A stretch of 5,465 nucleotides of DNA, taken from a bacterium (GTDB lineage: Bacteria; B130-G9). How positions within the stretch are numbered: the first letter of the stretch is position 1; every line of letters begins with the position of its first letter. The DNA lies in contig JAGHCW010000193.1 of the NCBI GenBank assembly GCA_021160245.1, positions 1 to 5,465 of the forward strand. Reading direction: 5' to 3'. The notes under the pieces were generated by a model. That model was not told the origin of the DNA and did not search any database. It saw only the letters and a list, made by a program, of their open reading frames with translations. Positions 2 through 5,090 of the stretch are shown here, piece after piece. The translations under genes were made by a program, and so were the position numbers.

Positions 2-1990
2 TCTCGAGCCGCTCGGACTTATGAGGTCTTCAGGACGACGGAGGGGCTTCCATGCAATATGATCAAGGCGCTCCTTGTTGCGACGGATGGCACGCTCTGG
101 ATTGGCATCGGCGGCTGGGGTGTCATCCGTTACGACGGGCGGCATTTCTGGGTAGAGGCCGACCGCATTCGGCTCGGCTCCGATTGGGTCTATTCCCTGG
201 CGCAAGACCATGAGGGAAGAATCTGGGCCGGAACGACGAATGGCGCATCGGTCTTTGAGAACGGGGAATGGACCACGTACACAACCGATCACGGGCTTGC
301 CGGGAACTGGGTCACCTCGATTGCGGCCGACAATGAGGGCGCCGTTTGGTTTGCGACATATCAGGGAGGCGTTGGCAAGTTCGAGGATAATGAGTGGAAA
401 AAAATCAGGCTATTCGATGGACTGGCGGACAACTGCGTCTTTGCCGTCGGGGCCTCGGATGATGGCCTCAAGTGGTTCGGGACGCTCTATGGTCTGACCA
501 AGATGGATAGCTGGGGCATGAAGACGTACCGGAACAAGTCCTATATACCCGATCCCAAGGTTACTCTTGTGAAATGCGATAGGCTAGGTCGCAGCTGGTT
601 CGGCACTCGCCGGGGGCTATCCTATCTCGATCAGGGCCGATGGCGGGTGCTTACAACAGATGACGGTCTGCCCGGCAATGACGTTACGGCGGTCGAGCTC
701 GATGATGACGACAACGTCTGGATCAGCACGAAAGACGGGGGCATCTGTGTCTGGGACGGGACGCATTTTACCTATCTTAAAGTAGAGAACGCGCTGAGAG
801 AGCAGAGCATCTTGTCCATCGCTATAGACGATGAGGACAGTAAGTGGCTCGGAACAACTAATGGGCTGTGCCGATTGAAGGACCACAATACGCTATGGCT
901 TGGGAATGAGAACGGGATGATGAACACCGAGGTTAAGGACGTCCTACTTGCTCACGACGGCTCAGTCTGGGTGGGAACTGCCGGGGGCGCCGGGCGCCTT
1001 TCATCCGACGAATGGGTGTGGTTCACCAGCGACGACGGTCTCGCCAGCAACTGGGTCCTATGCGTCGCCGAAAGCCCCGAAGGGAGCATCTGGGCCGGCA
1101 CCAGATTTGGCGCAAGCAGGCTGGACGGCGAGACCTGGACGAGCTTTGATAAGACGAATGGCCTGGCAGGGGACATAGTCTTTGATGTGGCCTTTGGCCC
1201 CGACGGCGGGGTCTGGTTCGCAACATCACACGGCGCCTCGCGTCTTCAAGATGGCAGATTCGAGACATTCGATCAGAAGGACGGCCTCATGGACGATCAG
1301 ATATTCGATATTCACTTCTCCCAGAACGGGTGGTGGTTCTTCGGCGGCGGTCTCGGGTGCAACTTCTTCGATGGCTCAGTCATCAGACACCTTCGCCCCT
1401 TTAATGGGCTTGCCTTCAACTTCGTCAATACGATAGCACAAGAAAGCGAGACGGTCTTCTTCTTAGGAACAATGGTCGGAATGAGCCGGTTTGACGGACG
1501 GAATCTCATCACATACTACTCTGTTGACGGCCTGTGCGACGACTCCGTGCAGGACATCGCCATTGACAGCCTGGGCCAGAAATGGGTTGCTACCAAGAGA
1601 GGGCTATCAAGTCTGGTCGATGAGGAGATCGACAGCCAGCCAAGCGTTCATCTTCGAACCTGGGAACCGTCATATAACGCCGGCGACGAAATAGTGCTTC
1701 TCGGCGGACTAGTTAATCAATCCACCGACTGCACAATCGACATCTATGTGGCCATTGCGACTCCGGACCACTCCATATTTTATCTACCGGACTTCGTTAC
1801 CGAGGCCGCTCCATTCGTTGAGAATCACCTGCTGATGTCCCATTCTCGGGCGTTTTTCCATCCCATCTTCGAGCTCGAGGCGCCGGACGGCGCCCCAACT
1901 GGAGAGTACCTCTTCCTGGGTGCAGTCATGGACTCCTTCACCGGGCGCGTCTTTGATACGATAGCGGTTGAACATTGGAGCCTGGAGTGA
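2..1990 (+). CDS. Reg_prop-type beta-propeller protein, 5' end missing
   Basis: The product is a repeat protein of the 'two-component regulator propeller' (Reg_prop) type. The frame has no stop from base 2, and the 19 codons before the ATG at 59 already encode blade sequence (TTEGLPCN), so that ATG is internal and the true start lies left of the window. Numbering from that Met, 13 repeats carry the pattern DGLxxNxV...DxxGxxWxGTxxGxxRxDG. Their key aromatic residues fall at 14, 56, 97, 139, 180, 221, 263, 304, 345, 386, 427, 468 and 509, a spacing of 41-42. Residues about 525-643 form a different, probably beta-rich domain (YNAGDEI, DIYVAI, YLPDF, PTGEY). No kinase, Y_Y_Y or DNA-binding domain follows, unlike hybrid sensor proteins that carry these propellers. 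Such propellers usually lie outside the cytoplasm and bind ligands or partners; this one's role is unknown. Any signal peptide would be upstream of the window. The gene ends with TGA and converges on the next gene. Confidence 0.9.
   Translation, partial: SRAARTYEVFRTTEGLPCNMIKALLVATDGTLWIGIGGWGVIRYDGRHFWVEADRIRLGSDWVYSLAQDHEGRIWAGTTNGASVFENGEWTTYTTDHGLAGNWVTSIAADNEGAVWFATYQGGVGKFEDNEWKKIRLFDGLADNCVFAVGASDDGLKWFGTLYGLTKMDSWGMKTYRNKSYIPDPKVTLVKCDRLGRSWFGTRRGLSYLDQGRWRVLTTDDGLPGNDVTAVELDDDDNVWISTKDGGICVWDGTHFTYLKVENALREQSILSIAIDDEDSKWLGTTNGLCRLKDHNTLWLGNENGMMNTEVKDVLLAHDGSVWVGTAGGAGRLSSDEWVWFTSDDGLASNWVLCVAESPEGSIWAGTRFGASRLDGETWTSFDKTNGLAGDIVFDVAFGPDGGVWFATSHGASRLQDGRFETFDQKDGLMDDQIFDIHFSQNGWWFFGGGLGCNFFDGSVIRHLRPFNGLAFNFVNTIAQESETVFFLGTMVGMSRFDGRNLITYYSVDGLCDDSVQDIAIDSLGQKWVATKRGLSSLVDEEIDSQPSVHLRTWEPSYNAGDEIVLLGGLVNQSTDCTIDIYVAIATPDHSIFYLPDFVTEAAPFVENHLLMSHSRAFFHPIFELEAPDGAPTGEYLFLGAVMDSFTGRVFDTIAVEHWSLE
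59..1615 (+). repeat. Array of 13 propeller-blade repeats (41-42 residues each)
   Basis: Within the propeller gene the coding sequence is a tandem array with a period of 123-126 bases. Each unit has a DGL-type turn, a V..I core strand, a D..G turn and a WxGT strand. Units 5 and 7 have lost the DGL motif, and units 11 and 12 have Phe in place of the key Trp. The repeat is clear at the protein level but diverged at the DNA level, so it is an old duplication rather than a recent DNA repeat. Unit 1 begins a few codons before base 59. Confidence 0.88.
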
Positions 1991-2033: not shown

Positions 2034-4451
2034 CTAGCGCCGGGGCTTTCTGCTTAAGAAGATCGAAGGCAGCGTCCTGATCAAAATAGAGAGGTCCAGA
2101 AGCAGCGAGCGGTTCCGCACGTAATAAAAGTCGTATTCCATGTTCTTGTAGAGTGGGACGATGTCTGACCCGACGAGCTGCCACAGGCCGGTGAGGCCCG
2201 GTTTGGCATCGAATCTGCGCCTCTGCCAGGGCTCATATTTCTTCGCGATCAGCGGTATCTCAGGGCGCGGCCCGACGAGGCTCATTTCGCCTCTTAGGAC
2301 ATTAATCAGTTGAGGCAACTCGTCCAGGTGAAACCTCTCCAGAAACCGCCCGACCTTAGTATATTGGACGGAAAGCGGCACGGGTCTGCCCTCAAGCTTA
2401 GAAGGCTCCGGAAGATGAAACGTCCTGAACCGATGAAGCAAGAACGGGCGCTCACGCAATCCGAGTCGCTCAAACCTAAGAATTGTGGGACCTTTTGATT
2501 CGATCTTGATGGCGACCGAGATAATCGCCGTCAAAGGAAGCGTCAAGATGACAAATAACAAACTGAGCGTCCTGTCCATCGCCGCCTTTGCGGAGAGGTA
2601 TAGCGCGGAGGTCTGGCCGGGGCCAAGGTCTATCAGCGGGAGGTCCCCCACACTGTCCATATCGACCTTACCGGTCATAATAATGAACGCGTCCGAGACG
2701 ACATGGAATCCCACGTTTGCGCTCTCACAACGAGCAATTAGATTCAGAACTTCATTATGAGAAAGGCCGGGCTTTGAGATGTAAATCTCGTCTGCTCTAT
2801 GCTCCTCGATCAACGACTCGAGCTTCGAGATAGACCCGAGTACCGGCAGCGAGACCTCACGACCACCCATTTCCTTCCATTTGAGCGATTCAAGGGGAGA
2901 ATCGTCCACGAATCCCACAACGTCGTAGCCGAGCTTCGGCACAGAATGAAGCTTGTGACCGACTAGTCTTGCGGATTCTCCCGTTCCAACCACGATTGCG
3001 CGCAGCCTGTCGTAGCCTTTGCCCAAGAGAAATGCCTGCAGGGCGTAAATGAGGGACCTTACAACGCTTGCGAGCACAAGACTCACCGCCCAAAAGAGCG
3101 GAACAATCGAACGAGAATACTCAATCCTGAAGAAATAAAGGGCAGCCATAATAATGATCGTCAACTGAGACACAGCGAGAAACACCTTCACCAATTGGTA
3201 CGGCTTGAACGTCCCCCTAGCTTGATGATAGAGACCAAATGACCCGAAAACAGCAAGCCATGCAACCGTCACGACAGGAAGCGCCATAAGATATACCGAT
3301 TGAGGCAAAAGTCCCGGCCGAAAATACCCGGCAAGATCGCCAAGCCCAGAGAAATCCAAGACCTCACCTATGTTGCTCCTCAGCCAATAGAGAAAAACCA
3401 GCGAGATGTTGCAAACGACAATGTCGCTCGCCATCTGTATCGTCGGGAACAGCAACTTGCGCTTCTTTTGCGAGGCGAGGCCCGCAAGAAGGCCAAAGCC
3501 AAATGCTGATGATCGAATGAATAGAAAGATGGGGGAAAGAAGCCCAAGCAACTTGTTTCCCTTGAATGTCGCCACCGCAAAAGGAAGGCTGAGAAGCACG
3601 AATACTGCCGCCCCCAAAAACAGCAGCCAGGCCGAGAACTCCTGAAACAGAGCCGAGCCAAGGAGCGCTCCGATAAGGTAAAACGCCACAAGAATCTGAA
3701 TCTTAAGCGTCTGAGGTGTATAGGAATCCCTGACGACCTTGCGCGGAAACCTGTCATAGACGAATGTCCGCCAGTAGGCCCGGCCGAACTTGAGCTTCGC
3801 ATATTTCAGCACCGTGTCCGGATGCGTATGATAGACGATTGCCCGGGGATTGAAGACCATCTTATGCTTCCTCTGCGCGACAAGAAAGGAGAGCTCCACG
3901 TCCTCGTTGTTGGCCTTCGGATACCTCGGATTAAAGCCTCCTACCGCCTCGAACACTTCCTTCCGGAACGCGGCGGAGTAGGTGTCAACAAAATCTATGT
4001 ATCGTCGCCTAGCTAGCCGCTTGAAACGCTCCTCAAACTCCGCCTGCGCAAACACCGCCGTGAAGCTCTTCTGCCTCGTTCGATAGGCTCCTTTTACGGC
4101 CGCGACGTCGTGGTCCTGGACGAGCGGATTGACCATCTCTCGCAGCCAATTCGGCTCCGGCACACAATCAGCGTCGGTAAAGAGAATTATCTCTCCACGC
4201 GCATGGGCAACGCCGTTGTTGCGAGCGACAGCCGGTCCCCGATTGCTCTGATATATGTACCTAACGTCGAATCGCTCCACAATGCGACTCGTGTCATCGG
4301 TGGAGCCATCGTCAACGATGATTACTTCAAACTCGTGATGAGGCACGTCTTGCGAGGCCAACGCCTCAAGACATTCGGCTATGGTCGCCTCACCGTTATA
4401 GACTGGTACTATAATTGAGAATTTGGGCCATCTTGGGGCGGTCGGGCTCAA
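2034..4451 (-). CDS. GT2 glycosyltransferase fused to polyprenyl phosphoglycosyltransferase
   Basis: This membrane protein (805 residues from the chosen start) joins two normally separate enzymes. Residues about 10-235 are a GT2 GT-A transferase: SIIVPVYN, VDDGSTDDT (46-54), a DxD-like TDAD (92-95) and the likely catalytic-base ED (183-184). Three membrane segments follow (about 250-268, 273-295, 302-326). The rest is a full WbaP/WcaJ-type enzyme: four membrane segments (about 337-358, 382-405, 417-441, 448-472), a Rossmann domain with VVGTGESA (from about 487), then the bac_transf catalytic domain (about 622-805) with the Asp-Glu dyad in HLDELPQ (D710, E711), GPRPE (727-731) and KPGLTGLWQ (750-758). 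By family, the C-terminal half moves a sugar-1-phosphate from a nucleotide sugar to undecaprenyl phosphate, starting a surface glycan; the GT2 half could add a later sugar. Neither substrate can be read from sequence. I chose TTG at 4451 because GGAGG sits 7 bases upstream and the GT2 fold begins about 9 residues later. An upstream TTG at 4544 would overlap aroQ by 65 bases and add 31 residues outside the fold. The stop is TAG. Confidence 0.9.
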   Translation of the reverse strand: MSPTAPRWPKFSIIVPVYNGEATIAECLEALASQDVPHHEFEVIIVDDGSTDDTSRIVERFDVRYIYQSNRGPAVARNNGVAHARGEIILFTDADCVPEPNWLREMVNPLVQDHDVAAVKGAYRTRQKSFTAVFAQAEFEERFKRLARRRYIDFVDTYSAAFRKEVFEAVGGFNPRYPKANNEDVELSFLVAQRKHKMVFNPRAIVYHTHPDTVLKYAKLKFGRAYWRTFVYDRFPRKVVRDSYTPQTLKIQILVAFYLIGALLGSALFQEFSAWLLFLGAAVFVLLSLPFAVATFKGNKLLGLLSPIFLFIRSSAFGFGLLAGLASQKKRKLLFPTIQMASDIVVCNISLVFLYWLRSNIGEVLDFSGLGDLAGYFRPGLLPQSVYLMALPVVTVAWLAVFGSFGLYHQARGTFKPYQLVKVFLAVSQLTIIIMAALYFFRIEYSRSIVPLFWAVSLVLASVVRSLIYALQAFLLGKGYDRLRAIVVGTGESARLVGHKLHSVPKLGYDVVGFVDDSPLESLKWKEMGGREVSLPVLGSISKLESLIEEHRADEIYISKPGLSHNEVLNLIARCESANVGFHVVSDAFIIMTGKVDMDSVGDLPLIDLGPGQTSALYLSAKAAMDRTLSLLFVILTLPLTAIISVAIKIESKGPTILRFERLGLRERPFLLHRFRTFHLPEPSKLEGRPVPLSVQYTKVGRFLERFHLDELPQLINVLRGEMSLVGPRPEIPLIAKKYEPWQRRRFDAKPGLTGLWQLVGSDIVPLYKNMEYDFYYVRNRSLLLDLSILIRTLPSIFLSRKPRR

Positions 4452-4458
4452 CCGGCGC

Positions 4459-4463
4459 CCTCC
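4459..4463 (-). promoter_or_regulatory. Ribosome binding site (GGAGG) for the fusion gene
   Basis: On the minus strand a perfect GGAGG stands 7 bases before the TTG at 4451 and inside the 28-base gap after the aroQ stop. The other in-frame starts (TTG 4544, GTG 4541, ATG 4529) have no comparable site. This decides the proposed start, but it is a reading of sequence only. Confidence 0.6.
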
Positions 4464-4479
4464 GGGAAAATCGGCCAGG

Positions 4480-4935
4480 TCATTCGTTTCCGCCCAGGGC
4501 AGAAGATACGGCACGCAATGCGATGGCATAAGACCCAACACCAAATCCGCAGACCATTCCCGTGCAGGCGCCCGTCGTCATCATCGTCTGCCGGAATTGC
4601 TCACGGGCAAAAACGTTTGTGATGTGGACTTCAACCGCAGGCAATGTGGCGCCCGCGATGGCGTCGCGTATCGCAATGCTCGTATTGGTATAACCGGCGG
4701 GGTTGATTATTATCGCCGAGAAGCCATTGAGCTCGGCCGATTGAATGCTGTCGATGATCTCCCCCTCGCTGTTGGATTGGATAGTCGAGACATTAAGTCC
4801 AAGCCGCTGGCCAAGCTCCATCAGCTCTTGATTCACATCCGGCAGGCGCTTGGTCCCGTAAAGCTCAGGTTCCCGTCTGCCAAGCTGATTGATATTTGGG
4901 CCATGAATGACCATGACCTTCTTGCTCTCTGGCAT
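4480..4935 (-). CDS. aroQ: 3-dehydroquinate dehydratase, type II
   Basis: AroQ converts 3-dehydroquinate to 3-dehydroshikimate in the cytosolic shikimate pathway; the type II enzyme is a small flavodoxin-like protein that forms dodecamers. The 151 residues match the usual 140-155. Visible signatures are HGPNINQLGRREPELYG (11-27) with the likely catalytic Arg21 and Tyr26, QSNSEGE (53-59), NPAGYTNTS (78-86), VEVHITN (101-107) with Glu102 and His104, and AREQFR (110-115). The ATG at 4935 is preferred over the GTG at 4983: it has GAGGTG 8 bases upstream, and the 16 extra residues from the GTG look unrelated to the fold. One oddity is Asn84, where the family normally has a substrate-contacting His (YTHTS). 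The gene ends 28 bases before the GT2-phosphoglycosyltransferase gene on the same strand, so the two are probably co-transcribed, although no functional link is obvious. Confidence 0.96.
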   Translation of the reverse strand: MPESKKVMVIHGPNINQLGRREPELYGTKRLPDVNQELMELGQRLGLNVSTIQSNSEGEIIDSIQSAELNGFSAIIINPAGYTNTSIAIRDAIAGATLPAVEVHITNVFAREQFRQTMMTTGACTGMVCGFGVGSYAIALRAVSSALGGNE

Positions 4936-4943
4936 GTCGTTCA

Positions 4944-4949
4944 CACCTC
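4944..4949 (-). promoter_or_regulatory. Ribosome binding site (GAGGTG) for aroQ
   Basis: On the minus strand GAGGTG lies 8 bases before the ATG at 4935. It supports that start over the GTG at 4983, which has only a weak AAGG close to it. Confidence 0.55.
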
Positions 4950-5090
4950 TATTGAATGCGCCGTTCGCCTCGAAAGCAACCACTTTGCCTTGCTAGCTAA
5001 AAGAGCTGTGGCTTGCCGGGCGCCCGCCCTCGATTGCAGAACCTAACAGCCCACGCCAAGACCTTGCTCACCTCTTTGGGACGGGTCTGT

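Follow-up and report, generated by a model that had tools for sequence, protein, structure and literature searches.

Phosphoglycosyltransferases (PGTs) are the enzymes with which the assembly of sugar chains normally begins. Glycosyltransferase fusions, and fusions to polytopic PGTs, are reportedly among those in the survey by O'Toole et al. in 2021. Bi-PGTs, in which a further functional domain is fused to the monotopic PGT (monoPGT) catalytic domain, are an established class (PMC10942596). In PglC, Arg88 and Arg145 are both assigned to the binding of undecaprenyl phosphate (UndP); R88Q leaves minimal activity, and changes of Arg145 cost 100–200-fold (PMC10519829). A literature search by name for a fusion of a GT2 glycosyltransferase to a sugar transferase found nothing. 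Here we analyzed such a gene from Candidatus Coatesbacteria, a little-known phylum. The window, meaning the whole stretch of DNA under analysis, is one complete contig of 5465 bases from an assembly of 244 contigs.

A GT2–large PGT fusion gene in Coatesbacteria

A stop-free open frame runs from 2034 to 4544 on the minus strand, the strand of every feature of the fusion gene given below. Within this frame, the gene occupies 2034–4451 and encodes 805 aa from a TTG start, as judged by the open frame, Pfam and NCBIfam matches, and orthologue alignment. The start at 4451, proposed in an earlier note on this DNA, holds up well: a GGAGG ribosome-binding site (4459–4463) lies 7 bases upstream, and the TTG coincides with the ATG of the full-length orthologue. 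Pfam matches, numbered here on an 836-aa frame rather than on the 805-aa product, were Glycos_transf_2 (43–201, 1.4e-39), CoA_binding_3 (435–613, 1.9e-20) and Bac_transf (653–829, 2.4e-48). These matches, and the score for NCBIfam model TIGR03025 (327 bits, cut-off 295.6), are far above chance. The curated cut-offs of TIGR03022 (WbaP; 208.7 versus 403 bits) and TIGR03023 (WcaJ; 295.6 versus 410.8 bits) were not reached, so the description of the PGT half as WbaP-type is right for its architecture but not as a substrate assignment. Upstream of the fusion gene lies a type II dehydroquinase gene (aroQ; 4480–4983, minus strand), which is also upstream in G003, one of the other Coatesbacteria genomes. 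Convergent with the fusion gene is a gene (2–1990, plus strand) for an incomplete protein, truncated by the contig start, that contains Reg_prop two-component-regulator propeller repeats.

Because the contig is short (5465 bases) and the assembly fragmented, one may suspect that two neighboring genes were joined through a missed stop or an error of sequencing or assembly. We therefore consulted all Coatesbacteria genomes in the genome collection, four in total. The fusion gene was present in each, with 72% identity. The G003 orthologue is fused and full length (804 aa), the G002 orthologue (707 aa) is fused and truncated where its contig stops, and the G001 orthologue comprises the PGT half and the end of the GT2 tail, in frame until the contig edge. 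Thus, orthologues from three other assemblies keep the reading frame into the join or across it, with no missed stop or frameshift at 3350–3500, and no split version of the gene was found among the four genomes. Two of the relatives are known as Candidatus Coatesbacteria records (L056 and L057), and the same fusion occurs in independent phyla. The thought that orthologues might always be two separate genes is not borne out, as they are fused both in other Coatesbacteria and in other phyla. An artefact is accordingly of negligible probability, a hidden frameshift being ruled out by the in-frame orthologues, and the single chain of a GT2 and a complete large monotopic PGT is genuine.

Among the Coatesbacteria orthologues, dN/dS was ∼0.03–0.15 in each segment where it could be computed, in both halves; these values are rough, as dS was saturated in several pairs. 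The PGT half is under purifying selection, with its catalytic domain constrained about as strongly as the GT2. The join is long-lived.

Domains, junction and membrane topology

The GT2 catalytic domain (residues 8–245; 3717–4430) was defined by Pfam, alignment, and structural similarity to hyaluronan synthase (Z 27.8 for residues 10–327). Sequence and fold comparison identified a GT-A fold with DDGS, DxD (DAD) and ED (NNED) motifs, and the domain carries the subfamily signature FAQ.EFEERF / ID.VDTYS. QxxRW is absent from the sequence of the GT2 half, with GRAYWR in its place, and YWR or YWK predominates at this position across the subfamily alignment. Lacking QxxRW, the hyaluronan-synthase-like GT2 half is probably non-processive. 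Its join to the PGT is a clean end-to-end one, the GT2 tail leading through a short basic linker (SQKKRKLL) into the helix that opens the PGT bundle. Alignment of the junction (SQKKRKLLFP; 3444–3473) with a stand-alone GT2 of genome G044 (L010; 50% identity, stopping at ...GLVF) showed that the latter ends exactly at the PGT start of the fusion. A PGT partner was sought beside this stand-alone gene, and the nearest PGT match on the same contig is 24 kb away.

An AlphaFold2 model of the fusion had a mean pLDDT of 89.8 and a pTM of 0.71; PGT-only rows of the underlying alignment (A3) were partly smeared over the GT2 region, yet the model was still good. Residues 8–329 (GT2 plus tail) match hyaluronan synthase (Z 27.8, 304 residues), and also cellulose synthase and PcManGT. 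The C-terminal half aligns with WbaP 8t53 over residues 331–799 (Z 22.4), with a large rmsd that probably reflects domain placement in the model. Residues 614–801 match PglC 8e37 more closely (Z 21.5, rmsd 2.6 over 183 residues). The C-terminal half has the hallmarks of a large PGT: a Bac_transf catalytic domain with an Asp-Glu dyad (2058–2588; Pfam, profile match), an N-terminal four-helix membrane bundle (residues 337–477; 3021–3443; hydropathy, model, 8t53 alignment), the accessory domain CoA_binding_3 (PF13727; 2706–3242; Pfam) and a re-entrant membrane helix in the core (residues 616–651; 2499–2606), which is a single helix in the model and lies within the region matching PglC.

Hydropathy analysis gave nine hydrophobic segments, of which three belong to the GT2 tail and four to the bundle. 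The earlier note spoke of seven membrane segments, which is probably an overcount. With 3+4 spans, the GT2 and PGT would lie on opposite sides of the membrane. Hydropathy, model helices and loop charges point to two spans in the GT2 tail (residues 247–265 and 270–296; 3564–3713). The third segment, helix 300–327 (3471–3554), is probably an interface helix, because K/R-rich loops flank it on both sides and the hyaluronan synthase match ends near it, at residue 327; span parity points the same way. Based on the model and loop charges, the topology is probably 2+4 spans plus the re-entrant helix, with both enzymes cytoplasmic.

The PGT active site and relatives in other phyla

For comparison, we aligned the PGT site with those of PglC and 55 other PGTs, including four large PGTs of the same genome. 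The catalytic dyad, D710-E711 (2319–2324), corresponds to PglC D93-E94 and is kept in the orthologue and residue alignments, as are R47, R112 and D169 (PglC numbers). Indeed, the Coatesbacteria fusions show no variation at the dyad, R112, D169 or most core residues. The two UndP-binding arginines are not: Glu705 (2337–2339) replaces Arg88, with Glu in 4/4 Coatesbacteria and Arg in 55/55 comparison PGTs, and Ser762 (2166–2168) replaces Arg145, with Ser in 4/4 and Arg in 46/55. All four Coatesbacteria fusions also carry His for Ser91, Ser or Ala for Asp77, Gln for Arg79 and Phe for Met63, and the DPR motif preceding the dyad is lost. Arg88 is no formal part of the definition of a large PGT, but it bears on activity, and the fusion does without it. 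Hence the statement that both halves keep their core motifs stands for DDGS, DAD and NED of the GT2 and for the Asp-Glu dyad, but fails for Arg88, Arg145, Asp77, Arg79 and Met63. Since the two arginines that grip the lipid carrier are gone, activity of the starter half is not to be assumed. Arg89, present in the fusion, might partly compensate.

When 84,980 species were scanned with the GT2 half, 139 relatives emerged; the best 80 of these, together with rows from other searches, gave a tree of 82 non-redundant GT2s. A large PGT is fused to 9 of them (Coatesbacteria, CSSED10-310, Kiritimatiellota, Eisenbacteria, Fermentibacteria) and a small PGT to 8 (Chloroflexota, UBP4), the other 65 being stand-alone proteins. 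Some stand-alone members adjoin a PGT gene. The domain order had been thought less common; that is true in a narrow sense only, as GT2-then-large-PGT is found in the four phyla besides Coatesbacteria, and PGT fusions of this GT2 subfamily span seven phylum-level groups. Two candidates were discarded: L082, whose match length had suggested a fusion, is a GT2 on its own with unrelated sequence after it, and in L086 the PGT lies in another frame.

The GT2 tree places the fusions of Coatesbacteria and CSSED10-310 as sister groups (SH-aLRT 85). Its fusion-state labels require seven changes, indicating that joining or splitting occurred several times. In the PGT tree, whose deep branches are weak, the fused halves group with an unfused Coatesbacteria paralogue (84). 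The GT2-neighboring PGTs L125, L097, L099, L113, L086, L123 and L127 fall in the same wider half as the fused ones, with L107 as the exception. At L125, genes for GT9, GT2 and large PGT abut, an arrangement that looks like the unfused state; at L097, a radical SAM gene, GT2, oxidoreductase and large PGT form one row.

The PGT site varies among the fusions. Two from CSSED10-310 have Gln88/His91 and Pro145, and a third from this group has Glu-Asp instead of Asp-Glu. The dyad Glu is lost from the fusions of Eisenbacteria and Fermentibacteria, whereas the site of the Kiritimatiellota fusion is fully canonical. Thus, PGT-site change accompanies most, but not all, large-PGT fusions. Arg88 is lost in 6/9 fused large PGTs of the residue alignment (a tenth, L131, was read separately) versus 0/55 others; a Fisher test on this loss ignores shared ancestry and used a fused set one row too many, and so does not give a probability. 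This pattern could mean that the PGT half no longer initiates and serves as a membrane scaffold, lipid-binding or regulatory module, leaving the GT2 as the sole working enzyme. Such a role would also suit L101 and L131, which lack the dyad Glu and have GPRG for GPRP, and L088, which has Glu-Asp for Asp-Glu. Moreover, the genome of the window retains four other large PGTs, all canonical, so initiation need not depend on the fusion. Yet the near-invariant core of the Coatesbacteria PGT half and the purifying selection on its catalytic domain speak against a non-initiating role, as does L087, which is fused and canonical, and we consider this role unlikely. A broader version, at best tentative, is that a lineage of GT2–large PGT fusions is re-purposing its PGT site, through arginine replacement in Coatesbacteria and CSSED10-310 and through a broken dyad in Eisenbacteria and Fermentibacteria, to give a pseudo-PGT module that might serve the GT2 or handle a different lipid phosphate.

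Several other arrangements were observed around these loci. Genes for DAHP synthase and an AMP-binding enzyme lie downstream of the fusion in both Eisenbacteria (L101:5553-6374) and Fermentibacteria (L131:7082-9708), with a chorismate mutase domain in L131. Shikimate-pathway genes adjoin the fusion in three phyla, which may be coincidence. An 850-aa frame at L039:2254-4803 (minus strand), its translation read by eye, holds two unrelated PGT folds in a single chain, namely a polytopic WecA/MraY-like PGT and a large monotopic PGT. One frame at L041:2407-4500, also read by eye, combines a small PGT with a CapD-like nucleotide-sugar dehydratase that has a membrane bundle.

Stand-alone GT2s recur in a cluster of GT9, DUF362/ferredoxin protein, B12-binding radical SAM, GT2 and molybdopterin oxidoreductase genes (L055:4958-13135, L060, L068, L074, L079 and many others), with hosts in Deltaproteobacteria, Nitrospirae and other groups. 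Radical SAM genes neighbor the stand-alone GT2 at 41 loci, GT9 at 24, DUF362 at 22 and oxidoreductase at 19. A literature search found no description of this cluster, which may represent an uncharacterized anaerobic glycan pathway. Its B12 radical SAM protein has a close orthologue in 4/4 Coatesbacteria (53–54% identity; next paralogue 32–34%), encoded at L152:1572-3056 (contig C97 of G000) and L153–L155 and, within the limits of the contigs, not near the fusion gene. In Fermentibacteria (L131), a B12 radical SAM gene lies directly upstream of the fusion. A parallel DUF362 link was sought in Coatesbacteria, and no close orthologue was found.

Proposed function and comparison with known systems

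With moderate confidence, we infer from these data that the fusion is a two-step membrane enzyme for consecutive steps of undecaprenyl-PP-linked glycan assembly, with an altered lipid-phosphate site; its activities, their order, the topology and the substrates are all part of this inference. The C-terminal large monotopic PGT would transfer sugar-1-phosphate to polyprenyl phosphate, and the N-terminal GT2, anchored by two spans and the interface helix, would add the next sugar. Both steps would occur at the cytoplasmic face of the membrane, where the fusion would hold the two enzymes together. The Und-PP-sugar may be handed over directly between the halves. We favor a two-step enzyme because the frame is continuous and present in 4/4 genomes, dN/dS is low, the dyad, R47, R112 and D169 are kept, and the folds match. 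Selection on the dyad-bearing domain likewise favors PGT activity. Further reasons are the repeated ties of this GT2 subfamily to PGTs, in fusions and in neighbors such as L125 and L097, and the Wzy_C polymerase-like gene that follows the fusion orthologue in G002. The case is weakened by the replacement of Arg88 and Arg145, the loss of the DPR motif, and the further changes in the CSSED10-310, Eisenbacteria and Fermentibacteria PGT sites, including dyad Glu loss. The lost arginines suggest an altered lipid-phosphate site or, less likely, a non-initiating role; through Arg88→Glu and Arg145→Ser, the PGT half probably differs from PglC and WbaP in affinity or substrate.

Alternatively, the GT2 might work in another step, making a polyprenyl-P-sugar or acting on a later intermediate, with the fusion providing only shared location or dosage. 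In many genomes the subfamily GT2 sits in the GT9–DUF362–B12 radical SAM–GT2 cluster, whose 5-kb flanks contain no PGT, and in the PDB the GT2 also matches PcManGT and, with lower scores, DPMS/ArnC-type enzymes. The repeated fusion or adjacency of this subfamily to PGTs argues otherwise, making a separate step improbable.

Fusions show which enzymes act together. That one GT2 subfamily has been joined to large as well as small PGTs suggests a shared two-step unit early in glycan assembly. The two-step enzyme proposed here offers a compact target for testing direct hand-over of the Und-PP-sugar, and its replaced UndP arginines provide a clear instance in which an altered or lost PGT activity can be tested.

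The fusion resembles several known systems and differs from each. Like the Bi-PGTs (PMC10942596), it joins another functional domain to a monoPGT catalytic domain, but here a hyaluronan-synthase-like GT2 precedes a complete large PGT in which the UndP arginines are replaced. This order may figure in the 2021 survey. With Salmonella WbaP (8t53) and the EPS_sugtrans family (TIGR03025) it shares the four-helix bundle, CoA_binding_3, re-entrant helix and Asp-Glu dyad, but has a shorter pre-dyad loop, replacements of Arg88 and Arg145, and a GT2 in front. Campylobacter PglC (8e37, 8g1n) has the same catalytic core and a similar short mobile loop, whereas the fusion lacks equivalents of its Arg88, Arg145, Asp77 and Arg79. 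CvHAS (8sne) and PcManGT (6yv7) share the GT2 fold with tail helices (Z 27.8 and 24.1, respectively); in the fusion, however, a conserved YWR replaces QxxRW, and the tail ends in the PGT bundle. The Chloroflexota GT2–small PGT fusions (L106, L115, L121, L126, L130, L132, L135) have the same GT2 subfamily and order, but their small PGT has no bundle or accessory domain and keeps both Arg88 and Arg145. Glycosyltransferase–PGT fusions are known as a class, of which this one is a variant with a GT2 joined to a large PGT whose UndP arginines are replaced.
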